Part shown: positions 41,723-48,488 of the stretch, piece after piece
How positions within the stretch are numbered: the first letter of the stretch is position 1
Layout of the letters: every line of letters starts with the position of its first letter
Assembly: GCF_003253995.1 (NCBI RefSeq)
Contig: NZ_QKZL01000001.1
Location: 248,001 to 312,000, forward strand
Reading direction: 5' to 3'
Source of the DNA: Palleronia aestuarii
Lineage (GTDB): Bacteria > Pseudomonadota > Alphaproteobacteria > Rhodobacterales > Rhodobacteraceae
Length of the DNA: 64,000 bases
Program-made: the position numbers and the translations under genes
Notes under the pieces: model-generated
What the model saw: only the letters and a program-made list of their open reading frames with translations
Told to the model about the DNA's origin: nothing
Databases searched by the model: none

Positions 41723-43585
41723 ATGATCGGCAGTGGCATGGGGAGGTTGGCTGCCATCGGCAGGCGCTATCCGGTGACGTTCGTGTTGCCGGTCGTCCTT
41801 GCGGTCGCGACGCTCGCCTTTTTCAGCTTTGCGCAGCACGCGCGCGACAATGTTGCCGACGAGGCCGAGGCGATGCTCGACCGGGCGCGGGTCACGCTCG
41901 ACAACTGGTTTGACCGGTACCGTGCGCTTCCCGCCCTCTACGCGCGCGACCCCCGCATCATCGACGCGCTCGCCGGTGATCCGCAGCCGGGCACGCTCGA
42001 TCCGGTGAGCCGGGAACTCGCCGCCTGGAACGACGTCGCGAACACGCTCGACACCTATATCCTGAACCGCGCCGGGACCGCCGTCGCCGCGTCCAACTGG
42101 CAGAAGAACCAGAGCTTTGTCGGCCAGAACTACGCGTTCCGGCCATACTTCGCCGAAGCGATCTCCGGCCGGGAGACGGGCTTCTTCGGGCTCGGGACGG
42201 TTTCGGGGCTGCGCGGCTACTTTCTCTCCGCGCCCGTGGTGCGCGACGGGCGGATCCTCGGGGTCGTGGTTCTCAAGATCCCGATCTTGGGCCTCGAAGA
42301 GGCACTCGATTACGCGCCTCATTCGATTTTCGTCACCGACACGGCGGGGGTCGCCATCATTTCGGGTAATCCGGTCCTGCGGATGACGGCGACGGGGCCC
42401 GTAGACGCCCAAGAGCAGCAGGTGATCGACCGGACCCGGCGCTACGATCTCGCCGAGATCGGCCCGGCGCCTCTCGAGGTGGCGGGGCGTTGGGCGGACG
42501 GTTACGTGCTCTCCCATGCGCCGATGGCCGCCGATCCCGACATGATGGGTACGCATCTGAGCCTGTCGCGGGAATTGGAGATCGACGATTGGCGGTTGCA
42601 GCTCCTCTACGATCTCGGCGCCTTCCGTGGCCGGCTCTGGTCCGTGGGAGCGGCCATCGCGGCGAGCGCCGTTGCGGTCATAGCTCTCGTCATGCTGGCC
42701 CTGCAGCGGCGGCAGAGGCTGATCGACCGGCTCGCAGACCGCGAACGCGACCGTGCGAAGCTTGCCCGGCGGGTCGAGCGGCGGACCCGCGAACTCTCCA
42801 CGGCGAATGTCCGGCTCGAGGCCGAGGTCGTCGAACGCCGCACGGCGGAGGAGACGTTGCGCCGGACGCAGAACGAACTCGTGCAGGCCGGAAAGCTCGC
42901 GGCGCTGGGTCAGATGTCAGCGGCGCTGAGCCACGAGTTCAACCAACCGCTGACGGCGATCCGCACCTACACGGAGAACGCCGCCGCCTTCTACGAGGCG
43001 GGCCGCGGCGACCGCGCGGCGGAGAATCTCGCGCGGGTCCTGCGGCTGACGGAAAGGGTGGCGCAGCTGTCCAAGCACCTGACGCGGTTCGCGCGGCGTT
43101 CCGGCGACGACGTGACGCCCACGGCGCTCGCTCCGATCGTGGAGGAGGCGCTGGGTCTTCTCGCGGCACGGATCGGACGGTCGGGAGCGCGCGTCTGCGT
43201 GACGGGAACCGAGGACGTCGTCGTGCTCGGCGGTGCCGTCCGTCTCCAGCACGTGCTGATGAACCTTATCACAAACGCGATCGATGCGGCCCGGCCCGAT
43301 GCGACGCCAGAAATTGAGATCGACGTGGCGCGACACGGCGCGGATGTCGAAATATCGGTCTGCGACGACGGTACCGGGATCGCGGACGAGACGCTGCCCA
43401 AGATCTTCGACCCGTTCTTCACGACGAAGGAGGTCGGCCGGGGATTGGGCCTCGGGCTGTCGATCTGCTTTAATATCGTGAGGGATTTCGGCGGCACGAT
43501 GCGCGCGGAGCCTCGCCCCGGCGGCGGAACGCGGATGGTGGTCCTGCTCCGCTCCGTGCCCGCCGAGCGGCTGGCGGCCGAATGA
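41723..43585 (+). CDS. dctB: DctB-like sensor histidine kinase
   Basis: 620 residues, GGGGAGGGG before the ATG. A first membrane segment (YPVTFVLPVVLAVATLAFFSFA), a periplasmic sensor of about 260 residues with double-PAS (dCache) features (FVGQNYAFRPYFAEAISGRETGFFGLGTVSG), a second membrane segment (VGAAIAASAVAVIALVMLAL), a coiled coil and the kinase core follow. The H box is SAALSHEFNQPLTAIRTYTENA, the N box LMNLITNAIDAARPD, and G boxes are DDGTGIADETLPKIFDPFFTTK and GLGLGLSICFNIV. It should sense an external dicarboxylate-like ligand and phosphorylate the regulator encoded next (4-base overlap). Confidence 0.92.
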   Translation: MIGSGMGRLAAIGRRYPVTFVLPVVLAVATLAFFSFAQHARDNVADEAEAMLDRARVTLDNWFDRYRALPALYARDPRIIDALAGDPQPGTLDPVSRELAAWNDVANTLDTYILNRAGTAVAASNWQKNQSFVGQNYAFRPYFAEAISGRETGFFGLGTVSGLRGYFLSAPVVRDGRILGVVVLKIPILGLEEALDYAPHSIFVTDTAGVAIISGNPVLRMTATGPVDAQEQQVIDRTRRYDLAEIGPAPLEVAGRWADGYVLSHAPMAADPDMMGTHLSLSRELEIDDWRLQLLYDLGAFRGRLWSVGAAIAASAVAVIALVMLALQRRQRLIDRLADRERDRAKLARRVERRTRELSTANVRLEAEVVERRTAEETLRRTQNELVQAGKLAALGQMSAALSHEFNQPLTAIRTYTENAAAFYEAGRGDRAAENLARVLRLTERVAQLSKHLTRFARRSGDDVTPTALAPIVEEALGLLAARIGRSGARVCVTGTEDVVVLGGAVRLQHVLMNLITNAIDAARPDATPEIEIDVARHGADVEISVCDDGTGIADETLPKIFDPFFTTKEVGRGLGLGLSICFNIVRDFGGTMRAEPRPGGGTRMVVLLRSVPAERLAAE

Positions 43586-44919
43586 GCGGCGGTCAGGTCT
43601 TCCTCGTGGACGACGACGAGGACGTGCGGATTTCCGTCGTCCAGACGCTCGAGATGCGTGGATTCGAGGCGACGGGCTTCGCGCGGGCAGAGGCCGCGCT
43701 CGAGCGGATCGGGCCGGATTTCGCGGGGATCGTCGTGTGCGACATGCGGATGCCCGGGATGGACGGCATGGCGTTCCTCGACGCGGCGCTGGGCCGCGAT
43801 GCCGACCTGCCCATCCTGCTGATCACGGGGCACGGGGAGGTCGCCCTTGCCGTCGAGGCGCTTGGGCGGGGGGCCTACGATTTCATCGAGAAGCCCTTTG
43901 CGCAGGATCGACTGATCGGCGCGGTGGAGCGTGCGCTCGACAAGCGTCGCATGACGCTGGAACTGCGCGCATTGCGTCGCGGCGCGACGGACGCGGGGCC
44001 GCTCGAGGGCATGGTGCTCGGCCGGACGCCGGAGATCGAGGCGTTGCGCCAGAAGATCCGGACGATCGCCGCGAGCCATCTCGACGTGCTGATCGTCGGG
44101 GCCACCGGGACCGGGAAGGAGCGAGTGGCCCGCGCGATCCATGCGCTCTCCGACGCCTCCCACCGGCCTTTCGTCGCGATCAATCTCGCGGCCCTCCCCC
44201 TCGATCAGGTGGAGACGGAACTCTTCGGTTTCGTCAGCAACGCCTTTCCGGGTGCGAGCCGGGCGCGGATCGGCCGTCTCGAGCATGGCAGGGGAGGCAC
44301 GATCCTCCTCGACGAGATCAGCTCCGCTCCGCTCTCCACGCAGGCAAAGCTCCTTCGCGTGCTCGAGGAACGGGCGGTGACGCCGATCGGGGCGAGCGAG
44401 GCGGTGCCGCTCGACGCGCGATTCATCACGTCGAGCCGCATTTCCCTGGAGGAGCAGGCGGCCGACGGTCGGTTCCGCGACGATCTGCTCTACCGCCTCA
44501 ATCCGGTGACATTGCACGTGCCCGACCTGACCGAGAGGCGCAGCGACATTCCCTACCTTTTCACGGCTTTCGTGGGCGAGGCGGCCGAGCGGCTGGAGCG
44601 GGACGTACCGGAAATATCGCCCGATCTCCTGCTGCGAATGTCGAGCCGCGACTGGCCCGGCAATCTGCGCGAGTTGCGCAATGCGGCCGAACTTTTCGTG
44701 CTGGGCCTCGACGGCGGTGCGCGGGCGACGGGAGAGGTGGAGACGCTGGCCGCGCGGCTCGACCGGGTCGAGCGCGACATCATCGCGAGTACGCTCGCCA
44801 TTCACGGCGGCAATCTCAAGGCGACTTACGAGCGGCTCGGGATAGGCCGCAAGACGCTATACGAGAAGCTGCAGAAACACGGTCTGCGGCGCGAGGATTT
44901 TGCCGGTCCGACCGAATGA
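43582..44919 (+). CDS. dctD: DctD-like response regulator with degenerate GAFTGA loop
   Basis: 445 residues. The receiver domain (LVDDDEDVRIS; phospho-acceptor Asp in VVCDMRMPGMDG; Lys in FIEKPF) is complete. The AAA+ domain has Walker A VGATGTGKERVARAIH and Walker B GGTILLDEIS, but the sigma-54-contacting loop reads LFGFVSNAFPGASRARIG, so GAFTGA has become NAFPGA. The C-terminal Fis-like helix-turn-helix is good (GGNLKATYERLGIGRKTLYEKLQKHGL). It should still bind DNA but may not activate sigma-54 promoters in the usual way. Its likely target is the TAXI-TRAP operon that converges on it. Confidence 0.92.
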   Translation: MSGGQVFLVDDDEDVRISVVQTLEMRGFEATGFARAEAALERIGPDFAGIVVCDMRMPGMDGMAFLDAALGRDADLPILLITGHGEVALAVEALGRGAYDFIEKPFAQDRLIGAVERALDKRRMTLELRALRRGATDAGPLEGMVLGRTPEIEALRQKIRTIAASHLDVLIVGATGTGKERVARAIHALSDASHRPFVAINLAALPLDQVETELFGFVSNAFPGASRARIGRLEHGRGGTILLDEISSAPLSTQAKLLRVLEERAVTPIGASEAVPLDARFITSSRISLEEQAADGRFRDDLLYRLNPVTLHVPDLTERRSDIPYLFTAFVGEAAERLERDVPEISPDLLLRMSSRDWPGNLRELRNAAELFVLGLDGGARATGEVETLAARLDRVERDIIASTLAIHGGNLKATYERLGIGRKTLYEKLQKHGLRREDFAGPTE

Positions 44920-44965: not shown

Positions 44966-47215
44966 TCAGCTCGCGCTTTCGCCGGCGTTCTTTGAGAGAA
45001 GTTCGCGCGCGGTGATGTTCGCGTCCATCATCCGGTGCGTGCCATAGGCGATGGCTACGAGAAGGATGCCCAGGAGGTCGCTCAGGATGCCGCCCTCGAT
45101 GAGCGACAGTGCCGCGAGGATCAGTGCGATGCGCGTGATCCAGCCCGACCGGCCGAGGATGAACCATCCCTGCACGCCCGAAGACAGCAGGTAGACGCCG
45201 ATGATCGCGGTCACTGCGGCCCGCAGGATCTCGAGGATCGTACCGTCCATCAGGATGGCCGCGTTGTAGAAGAACATGAACGGCACGATGAAGGCCGCGA
45301 TGCCGATCTTGAACGAGGCTGTCGACGTCTCCATCGCGTTCGCGCCCGAGATACCTGCCGCGGCATAGCTCGCGAGCGCCACGGGCGGCGTGATCGCGGA
45401 GAGAACCGCGAAGTAGAACACGAAGAAATGGGCGACCAGCGGCTGGATCCCGAGCTGAACGAGCCCCGGCGCCACGACGGAGGCCGCCACGGCATAGGCC
45501 GCCGTGGTGGGCATCCCCATCCCGAGAAGGATCGAGATGCACATCGCGAAGAACAGCGCCAGAAGCTGCGAGGTCGAGGCGAGGTTCAGCAGCACCGAGG
45601 AGAAGCGCGCGCCGACGCCGGTGAGGCTGATGACGCCCACGATGATGCCCGCACAGGCGCAGACCGCGATGATCTGGATCGACATGATCCCCGCGAGTTC
45701 GAACGCCTTGCCGACCTGCTTCGGTCCCATCCAGTGCACGGTGAACCAGGAGACGACCATCGCGGCAAGCGTGGCGTAGACGCCCGCACGGATCACCGAA
45801 TAGCCCATGAAAAGCGCGATGATCAGGATCACGATCGGGATGAAGAGGAAGATCCTCTTCACCAGCTTGCGGGCCTGCGGGATCTGATCCTCGGGCATCC
45901 CTTTCATGCCCAGCTTCGCCGCCTCGAAATCGACCATGAAGTAGACCGAGACGAAGTAGAGGATCGCAGGAATGATCGCGGCGATGGCGATCTCGGTGTA
46001 GGGGATGCCGGTGATCTCGGCCATGATGAACGCGCCCGCGCCCATGATCGGCGGCACGATCTGTCCCCCGGTGGAGGCCGCGGCCTCGATCGCGCCCGCG
46101 GTCTTGGGCTTGTAGCCCACGCGCTTCATCAGCGGGATCGTGAGCGAGCCCGTGGCCACGACGTTGCCTGCGGAGGTGCCGTTGATCATGCCCATGAGGC
46201 CGGAGGCGAAGATCGCCACCTTGGCCGGGCCGCCCCGCGCCTTTCCGGCGAGCGAGAAGGCGAAGTTGACGAAGTAGTCGCCGACCTTCGAGGCCTGTAG
46301 GAAGGCCGCGAAGATAATGAAAAGGATGATGTAGGTCGAGGAGACCGCCGTCGTCGGCCCGAGGATCCCGGCATCGGTATAGAGCTGGCTGAAGAAGCGG
46401 CCCCACTCGATGGGCGGAGAGTTGAGAAAGCCCGGCAGGTACTGACCGGTGAAGACGTAGACGAGGAAGACGAGCGAGATGACGACGAGGGCGAGGCCCG
46501 CCACGCGGCGCGTCATCTCCATGATGAGCACGGATCCCGCCACCGCGGCCATCGAGATGCCGATGGGCGCGAAGGGCGTGCCGGTGGAGTTGCGCATCAG
46601 CGTGCCGAAGATCGTGATGAGGTAGACGGCCACGGCCACGGCGCAGATGCAGAGCACCAGATCGGGGACAGCGAAGCCGGACCGGATGCGCCGATGCTGC
46701 CAGCTGAGCGCCGTCGCGCCCGCGGTCGCGACCCAGAGCGGGACACCGTAGAGCCAGATTTCGTTGAAGCGGATGGAGGCGTCCATCCCGTTCCACATGA
46801 CGCCGCCGGAAATCTGCAGGGCAAACCAGATCGCGACGCCGAGCGACAGGAGCGCTGGCGCGGCGAGCACGAGTGCGATCATGCCGAGAACCCGCGTCTC
46901 GCCCTCCTCATGGTCGGGGAACGCGTTCGGCGCGTAGAGCAGGAAGCCCAGGATCAGGGCGCCGGCCACGTGGACGATGCGGAAGTTCCAGGTTTCCATC
47001 GGGAAGGTCGGCAAGAAGGGGATCGAGATCCCCGTCATGCTCGAGATCGACACGCCGGTCAGGGCGGCCATGTGGAACGCGGCGTAGAGCCCCGCGGCAA
47101 CGGAGATCGCGATCAGCTGCCAGCCCTCGAACAGGCGACGATTGTCCTCGATCGCCTCCTCGTCCACGCCCTCTGCGATCACGCGTTCTTCTTCTATTCG
47201 CTGGCTGTCGGCCAT
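44966..47215 (-). CDS. TAXI-type TRAP transporter fused permease (DctQM fusion)
   Basis: 749 residues, the length of fused 4TM/12TM TRAP permeases. An acidic N-terminal tail (SQRIEEERVIAEGVDEEAIEDNRRL) precedes about 17 membrane segments. The large-subunit motifs are visible: SAGNVVATGSLTIPLMKRVG, GGQIVPPIMGAGAFIMAEI and GMGMPTTAAYAVAASVVAPGL, with ITPPVALASYAAAGI near the C terminus. This fused form pairs with TAXI-family receptors, and such a receptor is encoded 70 bases upstream. It probably imports a carboxylate such as a dicarboxylate or amino acid-like compound. Confidence 0.92.
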   Translation of the reverse strand: MADSQRIEEERVIAEGVDEEAIEDNRRLFEGWQLIAISVAAGLYAAFHMAALTGVSISSMTGISIPFLPTFPMETWNFRIVHVAGALILGFLLYAPNAFPDHEEGETRVLGMIALVLAAPALLSLGVAIWFALQISGGVMWNGMDASIRFNEIWLYGVPLWVATAGATALSWQHRRIRSGFAVPDLVLCICAVAVAVYLITIFGTLMRNSTGTPFAPIGISMAAVAGSVLIMEMTRRVAGLALVVISLVFLVYVFTGQYLPGFLNSPPIEWGRFFSQLYTDAGILGPTTAVSSTYIILFIIFAAFLQASKVGDYFVNFAFSLAGKARGGPAKVAIFASGLMGMINGTSAGNVVATGSLTIPLMKRVGYKPKTAGAIEAAASTGGQIVPPIMGAGAFIMAEITGIPYTEIAIAAIIPAILYFVSVYFMVDFEAAKLGMKGMPEDQIPQARKLVKRIFLFIPIVILIIALFMGYSVIRAGVYATLAAMVVSWFTVHWMGPKQVGKAFELAGIMSIQIIAVCACAGIIVGVISLTGVGARFSSVLLNLASTSQLLALFFAMCISILLGMGMPTTAAYAVAASVVAPGLVQLGIQPLVAHFFVFYFAVLSAITPPVALASYAAAGISGANAMETSTASFKIGIAAFIVPFMFFYNAAILMDGTILEILRAAVTAIIGVYLLSSGVQGWFILGRSGWITRIALILAALSLIEGGILSDLLGILLVAIAYGTHRMMDANITARELLSKNAGESAS

Positions 47216-47285: not shown

Positions 47286-48269
47286 TCAGCCGCCGTGGAT
47301 CATGTCGTCGGAGATCTCGACATCGGTGTTTTCCCGGAACCACCGCGCGGCGCCCGGATGCCAGGGCAGGACGGTGTTCTGGCTCGCATTCTCCGGGATC
47401 GTTGCCTGCGCGGAGCGATGGATGTTCACCATCCGCTCGTTGTCCGACATCACCACGTCGACGACGGCGTTGACGAGGCTCTCGGGCAGGTCGCAATTGG
47501 CGATAGCGAAGTTCCACATCGCCACGGAATTCGCCGGCTCGCTCAGCGACGAATAGGTTTCCGCCGGGATCTCGAACTCGGAAACCGGGAACGTGTCGAT
47601 GAGCTGCTGCTGCTGCTCGTCGGTGAAGGGGATGATGTTCACATCCGTCTGCACCTCGAGCTGGCTCACGGCCGGGATCGGGATGCCCGCCGCGAAGGCG
47701 ATGACGTCGAGGAGCCCGTCCTGAAGCTGGCCGCCGAGATCGGACCAGCCGCCGTTGCGCCGTTCGTAGCTCACGCCGAGCTCTTCGAGCATCCGCGGGA
47801 AATACGTGTCGGACGTCGAGCCTGCGGGGCCGAAGCCGATCCGTGCGCCGTCGGGGATGCTCTCGATGCTGTCGATGCCAGATGCGGAAAGGGCGGTCAC
47901 CGAGAACGGCGTCTGGTACATCGGGAAGATGGCGCAGGCATTGTCCATGGCGAGGCCGGGCGCGATCGGGTTCTGCCCTTCCATGCTTTCGCGTGCCGGC
48001 CCGAGCGTCGTCAGTCCGAAGGCGAGATCGCCGGTATGGACGAGTGCCATGTTCTGCATGGGTCCGCCGGTGACTTCCGCCCCGCCGGAGATGCCGAGCT
48101 CGTCGCCGACGAGGTTCGCCCAGCCGGAGCCATAGGCGAAATAGGTTCCGCCCTGGCTCGCCGTGCCGACGGTGAAGCTCGACGGCCAGTCCGAGCGGTC
48201 CGCTTCCTGTGCGGTGGCAAAACCGGCTGCGAGGGTGCAGGCCGCTGCGATCGTGAATTGAGTCTTCAT
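47286..48269 (-). CDS. TAXI-family TRAP substrate-binding protein
   Basis: 327 residues. Signal peptide MKTQFTIAAACTLAAGFATA, then the family start FTVGTASQGGTYFAYGSGWANLVGDELG (TAXI proteins open with a GT...GGTY motif). Further typical elements are NMALVHTGDLAFGLTTLGPA and a C-terminal PENASQNTVLPWHPGAARWFRE. The protein binds its ligand in the periplasm and feeds the fused permease. A ribosome site GGAGGAG precedes the ATG, and an operator-like dyad lies 85-115 bases upstream. Confidence 0.92.
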   Translation of the reverse strand: MKTQFTIAAACTLAAGFATAQEADRSDWPSSFTVGTASQGGTYFAYGSGWANLVGDELGISGGAEVTGGPMQNMALVHTGDLAFGLTTLGPARESMEGQNPIAPGLAMDNACAIFPMYQTPFSVTALSASGIDSIESIPDGARIGFGPAGSTSDTYFPRMLEELGVSYERRNGGWSDLGGQLQDGLLDVIAFAAGIPIPAVSQLEVQTDVNIIPFTDEQQQQLIDTFPVSEFEIPAETYSSLSEPANSVAMWNFAIANCDLPESLVNAVVDVVMSDNERMVNIHRSAQATIPENASQNTVLPWHPGAARWFRENTDVEISDDMIHGG

Positions 48270-48353
48270 GTGCTCCTCCAGAATTCTGGCCGACCGGGAA
48301 TGAGGTCCGGGGTCGGCCGGTGTCGAGACAGAACCTCACTGCATACCGGCATT

Positions 48354-48383
48354 GCAACATTCGTGGGTCACGAATTTGTTGGC
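48354..48383. promoter_or_regulatory. Operator-like dyad upstream of the TAXI-TRAP receptor gene
   Basis: The core ATTCGTG (48359-48365) and CACGAAT (48369-48375) is a perfect 7-base dyad with a 3-base spacer. Outer GCAACA (48354-48359) and TGTTGGC (48377-48383) extend it. The dyad lies 85-115 bases before the receptor start. This is a fitting place for an enhancer or operator. DctD-like control of the nearby operon would make this its candidate site. I see no clear sigma-54 -24/-12 element beside it. Confidence 0.5.
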
Positions 48384-48454
48384 TTCCGCAGCGGCAGGGG
48401 GCCGGATGTTCCGGAATCGACCCGTTCGCTGGGTTTGCTGGGTGGAGACTCACA

Positions 48455-48488
48455 CGAACACCCGGCGCGTCGTCGCGCCGGGTGTTCG
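48455..48488 (-). terminator. 15-base perfect hairpin at the end of the glucan operon
   Basis: Arms CGAACACCCGGCGCG and CGCGCCGGGTGTTCG pair perfectly around a TCGT loop. A second palindrome, GGTCCCG/CGGGACC (48506-48521), lies between it and the stop of the TreS-maltokinase gene. On the minus strand the two form a tandem terminator just downstream of that gene. There is no T-run, so a Rho-dependent or mRNA-stabilising role is also possible. Confidence 0.6.

Follow-up and report, generated by a model that had tools for sequence, protein, structure and literature searches.

Within the 64,000-nucleotide stretch of the Palleronia aestuarii genome analysed here in full (the window; contig NZ_QKZL01000001.1, positions 248,001 to 312,000), one gene encodes a response regulator that is by descent a DctD-like bacterial enhancer-binding protein and that has a replaced L1 loop, the GAFTGA element through which such proteins contact sigma-54. 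Comparison of its sequence, its relatives and its putative target promoter makes it quite probable that this regulator is a sigma-54-independent activator that works like Rhodobacter capsulatus NtrC, through a sigma-70-type RNA polymerase and from paired operators. The initial annotation had proposed that the protein no longer uses sigma-54, in the manner of R. capsulatus NtrC, and this proposal is supported by the distribution of rpoN, by the clade to which the regulator belongs and by promoter comparisons; activation, and the sigma factor through which it would proceed, are what we infer from these data. The gene and its key motifs are as follows.

43582..44919, + strand: DctD-like response regulator of 445 amino acids with receiver, AAA+ and Fis-type helix-turn-helix domains; open reading frame intact
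44239..44256, + strand: L1 loop codons (residues 220-225), reading NAFPGA in place of GAFTGA
44098..44121, + strand: Walker A motif, GATGTGKE

Domain matches place a receiver at residues 6-115, a Sigma54_activat AAA+ domain at residues 146-311, an AAA+ lid, and a Fis-type helix-turn-helix at residues 393-433. Also retained are Asp54, the Walker B motif GGTILLDE, the arginine-finger segment GRFRDDLLYRL and the sensor II segment WPGNLRELRN, and the receiver matches the solved DctD receiver structures 1qkk and 1l5y, the Thr-type proteins of the trees described below being uncharacterised homologues. The initial annotation had thus read correctly both the NAFPGA loop and, as judged by domain matches and retained key residues, the normal condition of the Walker motifs, receiver and DNA-binding domain. 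Among four features of sigma-54 activators that were tested, the AAA+ domain is present (176 bits) and the other three, namely a GAFTGA loop, rpoN in the genome and a -24/-12 element at the target, were not found. That the loop would be unable to contact sigma-54 is suggested by analogy with Bradyrhizobium japonicum NifA, which was inactivated by a Thr-to-Pro replacement according to the account cited in PMC4641369.

Replacement of the loop threonine runs through a whole clade, and a change private to the window gene was rejected on that ground. A homologue search of 198 genomes of the family, from which the best 30 loci were listed with the window included, gave 29 further loci (L014-L042) at 46-65% identity, of which L042 reads GAFTGA and the other 28 lack Thr at position 4; the closest Thr-type homologues are 40-48% identical to the window regulator. 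In a first tree, built from the listed homologues, three congener copies, two Rhizobiaceae sequences and 13 Thr-type relatives, the clade comprises 34 rows (28 Pro, 5 Ala and 1 Val at position 4) and is split from the 13 Thr-type rows by a single branch with support of 100/99 that was recovered in every one of 200 bootstrap trees. The second tree, of 66 rows, takes in a pair of Sinorhizobium members as well as 30 homologues from outside the clade, the next-ranked ones among them; it again places the clade, now 36 rows (30 Pro, 5 Ala, 1 Val and never Thr), on one side of a 100/99 branch, with the Thr-type L154 (GAFTSA) as its nearest neighbour (100/96) and the next-ranked homologues (L093, GAFTGA; L094, altered loop) outside it. 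Orthologue L032, which has an in-frame stop, was retained in the trees, and L165 and L156 entered the first and were left out of the second. The initial annotation had named a normal GAFTGA in most close homologues as a finding that would count against its proposal; the outcome was the opposite, Thr standing at position 4 in 0 of the 35 other clade rows. The loss of Thr is most simply placed in the common ancestor of the clade.

As for the loop itself, the clade typically has Pro at position 4, and Asn at position 1 is found in it only in the window regulator and in one congener copy (L283, NAFPGS). Since the Thr-type Pseudomonas relative L158 combines Asn with Thr (NAFTGA), the Gly-to-Asn replacement at position 1 was rejected as the key change and Thr-to-Pro is the informative one. 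Further erosion is seen in the sub-clade of the window regulator, whose loops read NAFPGA, NAFPGS, GALPGT and GAGPGT, with a one-residue deletion in L015 from the rpoN-bearing genome G158. A separate GAFPGA group (L085, L091, L100-L103, L108), found in both rpoN-bearing and rpoN-lacking genomes, lies apart from the clade in the second tree, so the Thr-to-Pro replacement seems to have occurred more than once. Other regulators of the family with Pro at position 4 are L077, L079, L081-L084 and L088; L077 reads GSFPGA, and similar proteins of rpoN-bearing genomes read GSFTGA. The clade extends to Sinorhizobium meliloti 1021, in which pSymB encodes a GAFPGA member (L293) with a kinase-length open reading frame upstream and no operator in its vicinity.

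Neither PF04552 nor PF04963, the two Pfam models used to search for rpoN, has a match in the genome (100% complete, 77 contigs), each model having matched in 4 of 14 control genomes, and PF04552 is likewise without a match in 12 of 13 congeners. Because no rpoN was found, independence of the window regulator from sigma-54 is close to forced. The sole rpoN found among the 13 congeners (G008:C1; L286, L237) adjoins a gene for a GAFTGA-type AAA+ protein, an arrangement that looks like joint arrival or joint retention of the two. Apart from the window regulator, three NtrC-type AAA+ proteins were found in the P. aestuarii genome, an NtrX-like protein (L002), an NtrC-like protein (L004/L005) and a DctD-like protein (L003), the NtrC and NtrX labels being assigned from similarity, and in all three the loop region is deleted. 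The last of these is listed here.

Genome contig C17:29752-31065: second DctD-like regulator, loop deleted (L003, L291)

Homologues of L003 sampled in other genomes of the family, mostly at 38-42% identity, carry GAFTGA in 0 of 20 cases, in rpoN-bearing and rpoN-lacking genomes alike.

The association of loop and sigma factor holds across the 198 genomes, in which PF04552 matched at E <= 0.001 in 67 and above the cut-off in 61; matches under the cut-off were taken as absence and G103, at 23 bits barely over it, was not taken as rpoN-bearing, which leaves 60 genomes so counted. Top PF00158 scores, taken genome by genome, are higher where rpoN is present (p about 2e-24, by a statistic that ignores kinship). 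A loop survey took one or two of the best loci per genome. Among the best 30 PF00158 loci, 27 come from rpoN-bearing genomes and all 27 read GAFTGA or GSFTGA, and neither form occurs in any of 26 rpoN-lacking genomes of at least 90% completeness with a top hit at E <= 1e-57, whose loops have Pro, Ala, Val, Asn, a deletion or, once, GALSHA. A further 50 loci from 45 of 46 genomes contained one GAFTGA, in G008, the only rpoN-bearing genome of that set. Ser or Thr at position 4 was seen in two loops of rpoN-lacking genomes that are otherwise unrecognisable (GALSHA in L089, GDPTRP in L240); G096, G150 and G175, which are 73-76% complete and in which no rpoN was detected, carry Thr loops, as might be expected if their rpoN had escaped assembly. 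Loop change does not track rpoN loss one-to-one, a relation that was rejected since rpoN is present in 13 of the 29 listed orthologue genomes; the regulator is evidently kept with or without it. At completeness of at least 90%, rpoN occurs in 12 of 25 orthologue genomes vs 42 of 150 others (Fisher p=0.06).

The predicted target of the regulator is a transporter operon on the opposite strand, of which the TAXI-family gene is the first.

47286..48269, - strand: TAXI-family TRAP solute-binding protein, gene 1 of the predicted target operon
44966..47215, - strand: TRAP fused permease, gene 2 of the predicted target operon
48406..48425, - strand: predicted proximal operator ACGGGTCGATTCCGGAACAT, 137-156 nucleotides upstream of the TAXI start
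48438..48457, - strand: predicted distal operator TCGTGTGAGTCTCCACCCAG, 8.2 bits, 32 bp from the proximal operator
48352..48357, - strand: TTGCAA, putative -35-type box, 48 bp behind the proximal operator

A motif search limited to palindromes, applied to 17 regions upstream of TAXI genes with Markov samples serving as shuffles, recovered a 20-bp palindrome, ATGKGTCG-N4-CGACMCAT, at 15.4 bits vs at most 9.2 bits in 12 shuffles. With a matrix built without the window site, the proximal operator scores 18.7 bits and is the best site in the 64 kb, the next scoring 13.7 bits. In all 17 discovery regions the best other match within 60 bp is a second copy 32-33 bp away. R. capsulatus NtrC uses tandem upstream sites, and paired operators upstream of the promoter, as in sigma-70-activating NtrC-type regulators, are predicted at the window locus as well. 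The motif also holds outside the regions from which it was derived: in nine held-out clade loci with transporter genes, which were not used for the matrix (L134, L135, L140, L152, L287, L288, L289, L153, L164), the best site lies directly upstream of these genes in 9/9. No operator was found near the loop-deleted second DctD-like regulator of the same genome (L291), as expected if the site is specific. A G+C-rich hairpin at about 48455-48488 in the window abuts the weak distal operator and is perhaps the terminator of the upstream gene.

Promoter class was examined with sigma-54 and sigma-70 matrices built from consensus sequences. The initial annotation had found no -24/-12 element before the target operon, and we too find none in the 420 bp upstream of the TAXI start, the interval between operator and TAXI start included. 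The operator is also present beside the regulator in 3 of 12 Thr-type loci scanned (L154, L157, L290), each with a DctP gene next to it, the site beside L154 being the second best of its 15 kb (17.1 bits vs 18.1 elsewhere). Behind the operator in all three of these loci stands a -24/-12 element of 13.9-15.3 bits, at +83, +117 and +50, with scores reached by none of 200 shuffles each, whereas such an element follows the operator in 0 of 26 Pro-type loci (best 8.4 bits; Fisher p=0.0003, a statistic that ignores kinship). What the Pro-type loci have instead is a TTG at 47-48 bp behind the proximal operator, found in 20 of 26, no position having exceeded 6 in 300 shuffles, and in 21 when the anchor is set by hand for L134, L287 and L289, which have one strong site each. 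Columns around the TTG are not conserved, so mere common descent is an unlikely explanation for it; in the search for a -10 element only a T at +25 stands out (13/23). The fixed distance from operator to TTG suits direct contact with RNA polymerase, and the variable distance from operator to -24/-12 element suits looping. The TTG box was also considered as the -12 half of a sigma-54 promoter and rejected as such, there being no conserved column upstream of it and no sigma-54 score above 8.4 bits in the 26 loci.

Two further kinds of repeated sequence were observed upstream of TAXI genes. TTGCA(T/A) boxes are repeated around the predicted promoter in L133, L138 and L141, 22 bp apart in L133, and GCGC-centred motifs occur in L137, L142, L145, L146 and L148 (for example TTGCGCAAAC and TTAGCGCAACCA). 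The latter resemble LacI-family operators, and possibly serve a second regulator.

Taken together, these comparisons suggest the following course of events. A clade derived from DctD would have left sigma-54 by replacing the loop Thr with Pro or, less often, Ala. The phosphate donor for Asp54 of the regulator is probably the Cache-domain kinase of the upstream gene. The regulator is then predicted to bind, ahead of the TAXI-TRAP operon, two palindromic operators that comparison places on the same face of the DNA at a spacing of 32 bp. Once bound, it would activate a sigma-70-type RNA polymerase from a fixed distance. The TTG box that follows the proximal operator after 47-48 bp would be the likely -35 element, which would put the operator centres near -94 and -126. 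Sigma-54 has no part in this scheme because none was found in the genome. The AAA+ domain, although retained, probably serves ATP binding and oligomerisation and not the remodelling of sigma-54.

Sequence variation in the ATPase bears on this last point. Another residue takes the place of the Walker B Glu in 10 of 34 clade rows (Asp in nine, all in one sub-clade, and Gln in one) vs 0 of 13 Thr-type rows (p=0.04, ignoring kinship, and reflecting two changes on the tree), and the window regulator itself retains Asp-Glu. These losses hint that parts of the clade can do without hydrolysis, as has been reported for R. capsulatus NtrC. In the second copy of congener G007 (L285/L294) Walker B reads LDQ and not LDE, which should impair ATP hydrolysis. 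A more far-reaching proposal, which we put forward tentatively and with more doubt than conviction, is that the loop change in a DctD ancestor made a fixed-distance sigma-70 activator out of a variable-distance sigma-54 remodeller while kinase, operators and kind of target stayed as they were, that GAF(P/A)GA, which most of the clade retains, is kept for a new partner, and that hydrolysis became dispensable.

Several observations weigh against sigma-70-type activation from paired operators. No convincing -10 element was found: the sigma-70 scan gave p=0.52 in the window and was not significant in 23 of 25 other loci, standing out in only two of the 26 (L136, L164). The distal operator of the window is weak at 8.2 bits, and the transporter operon has the opposite orientation to that in most relatives; this inversion may be a cause of the weaker site. 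The margin of the best site is thin in some held-out loci (L134, 13.1 vs 12.1 bits), and there is no operator near the two Sinorhizobium clade members (0/2), which adjoin peptide ABC transporter genes. The promoter contrast depends on three Thr-type loci, the loci compared are kin, so that p-values are not independent, and the regulator gene is accessory in the genus (3/14 genomes).

Among other explanations, the one that survives best, although we consider it unlikely, is that the regulator binds its operators and mainly represses. Loop-less relatives can repress, and NtrC-repressed genes are described for Caulobacter in PMC10274813, but here the TTG box is not covered by the operators, which precede it at a constant 47-48 bp, as suits an activator, and the same operator stands upstream of -24/-12 promoters in three Thr-type relatives. 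Less probable still is simple decay, in which the loop erodes after sigma-54 was lost and the regulator gene is turning into a pseudogene. The rest of the loop is indeed eroded in the sub-clade of the window regulator, the arginine-finger segment is altered in L041, and L032 (genome G193), with an in-frame TAG within Walker A and Val in its loop, probably represents a disrupted gene or an error in sequencing; against this, the window frame is open, the phospho-acceptor, ATP-site, arginine-finger and helix-turn-helix residues are conserved, as are operator and TTG box, and Pro or Ala loops also occur in rpoN-bearing genomes, so that decay after rpoN loss is not a sufficient account. Continued action with a sigma-54 that escaped detection through divergence, or that lies outside the assembly, has only the slimmest chance of being right, for although the assembly is in 77 contigs and the genes for RpoN and a GAFTGA-type protein stand side by side in congener G008, completeness is 100%, two domain models found no match, 12 of 13 congeners are negative, the target has no -24/-12 element, and Pro occupies a position at which Thr or Ser is needed according to PMC4641369 and PMC3162934.

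Activation without sigma-54 remains the reading we prefer, and the neighbourhood of the gene accords with descent from DctD.

41723..43585, + strand: partner sensor histidine kinase (Cache domain, HisKA, HATPase), with a 4-base overlap with the regulator gene

A kinase-regulator pair beside a secondary transporter is a DctB/DctD trait, and is present at the window locus. All 20 orthologue neighbourhoods examined have a kinase homologue upstream of the regulator, and 16 have a TAXI protein with a TRAP permease, the other four having a DctP solute-binding protein; two Rhizobiaceae clade members have a TctC-type solute-binding protein (Pfam) next to them. The second clade copy of congener G007 (Palleronia sp. 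LCG004; L285/L294), on the 204-kb plasmid unnamed2 (NZ_CP136761.1), precedes an annotated DctP-TRAP operon.

An evolutionary change in promoter-class dependence is rarely visible. Here related regulators share an operator and a kind of target, and those with a Thr loop have a -24/-12 promoter and those with a Pro or Ala loop do not. The comparison also exposes a naming problem, as public records give the name 'sigma-54 dependent transcriptional regulator' to clade members, among them one of Palleronia sp. LCG004, in which no rpoN was found.

In the open-access literature no publication on the clade or its operator was found, subscription papers lying mostly outside the search. Loop-defective relatives with a preference for Pro are already known: Francke et al. 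(2011; PMC3162934) describe around 110 homologues with deviating loops, in which Pro is preferred in place of Thr or Ser at position 4, and a Glu-variant homologue in Jannaschia sp. CCS1, which is without sigma-54 and for which sigma-70 dependence was suggested. Relative to the parts of that study drawn on here, the clade, operator, promoter comparison and target are particular to the present analysis. The function of another GAFPGA protein, DVU2960, is left open in the account given in PMC4641369. HupR, TyrR, DhaR and VpsR, named in PMC3162934 as former sigma-54 activators without that contact, differ from the window regulator in belonging to other families with other targets. The window regulator resembles DctD in domain order, kinase partner, location beside secondary transporters and the structural match of its receiver; unlike the sigma-54-dependent DctD, it is without the loop Thr, and no -24/-12 promoter or rpoN was found to accompany it. 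Its closest functional counterpart may be R. capsulatus NtrC, which is reported to activate through sigma-70 and for which ATP binding, and not hydrolysis, is reported as essential (as cited in PMC10274813). Both are NtrC-family response regulators without a regular GAFTGA loop, but in R. capsulatus NtrC the loop is deleted, whereas the window regulator, which is of DctD type and encoded next to transporter genes, keeps a loop in which Thr has been replaced.

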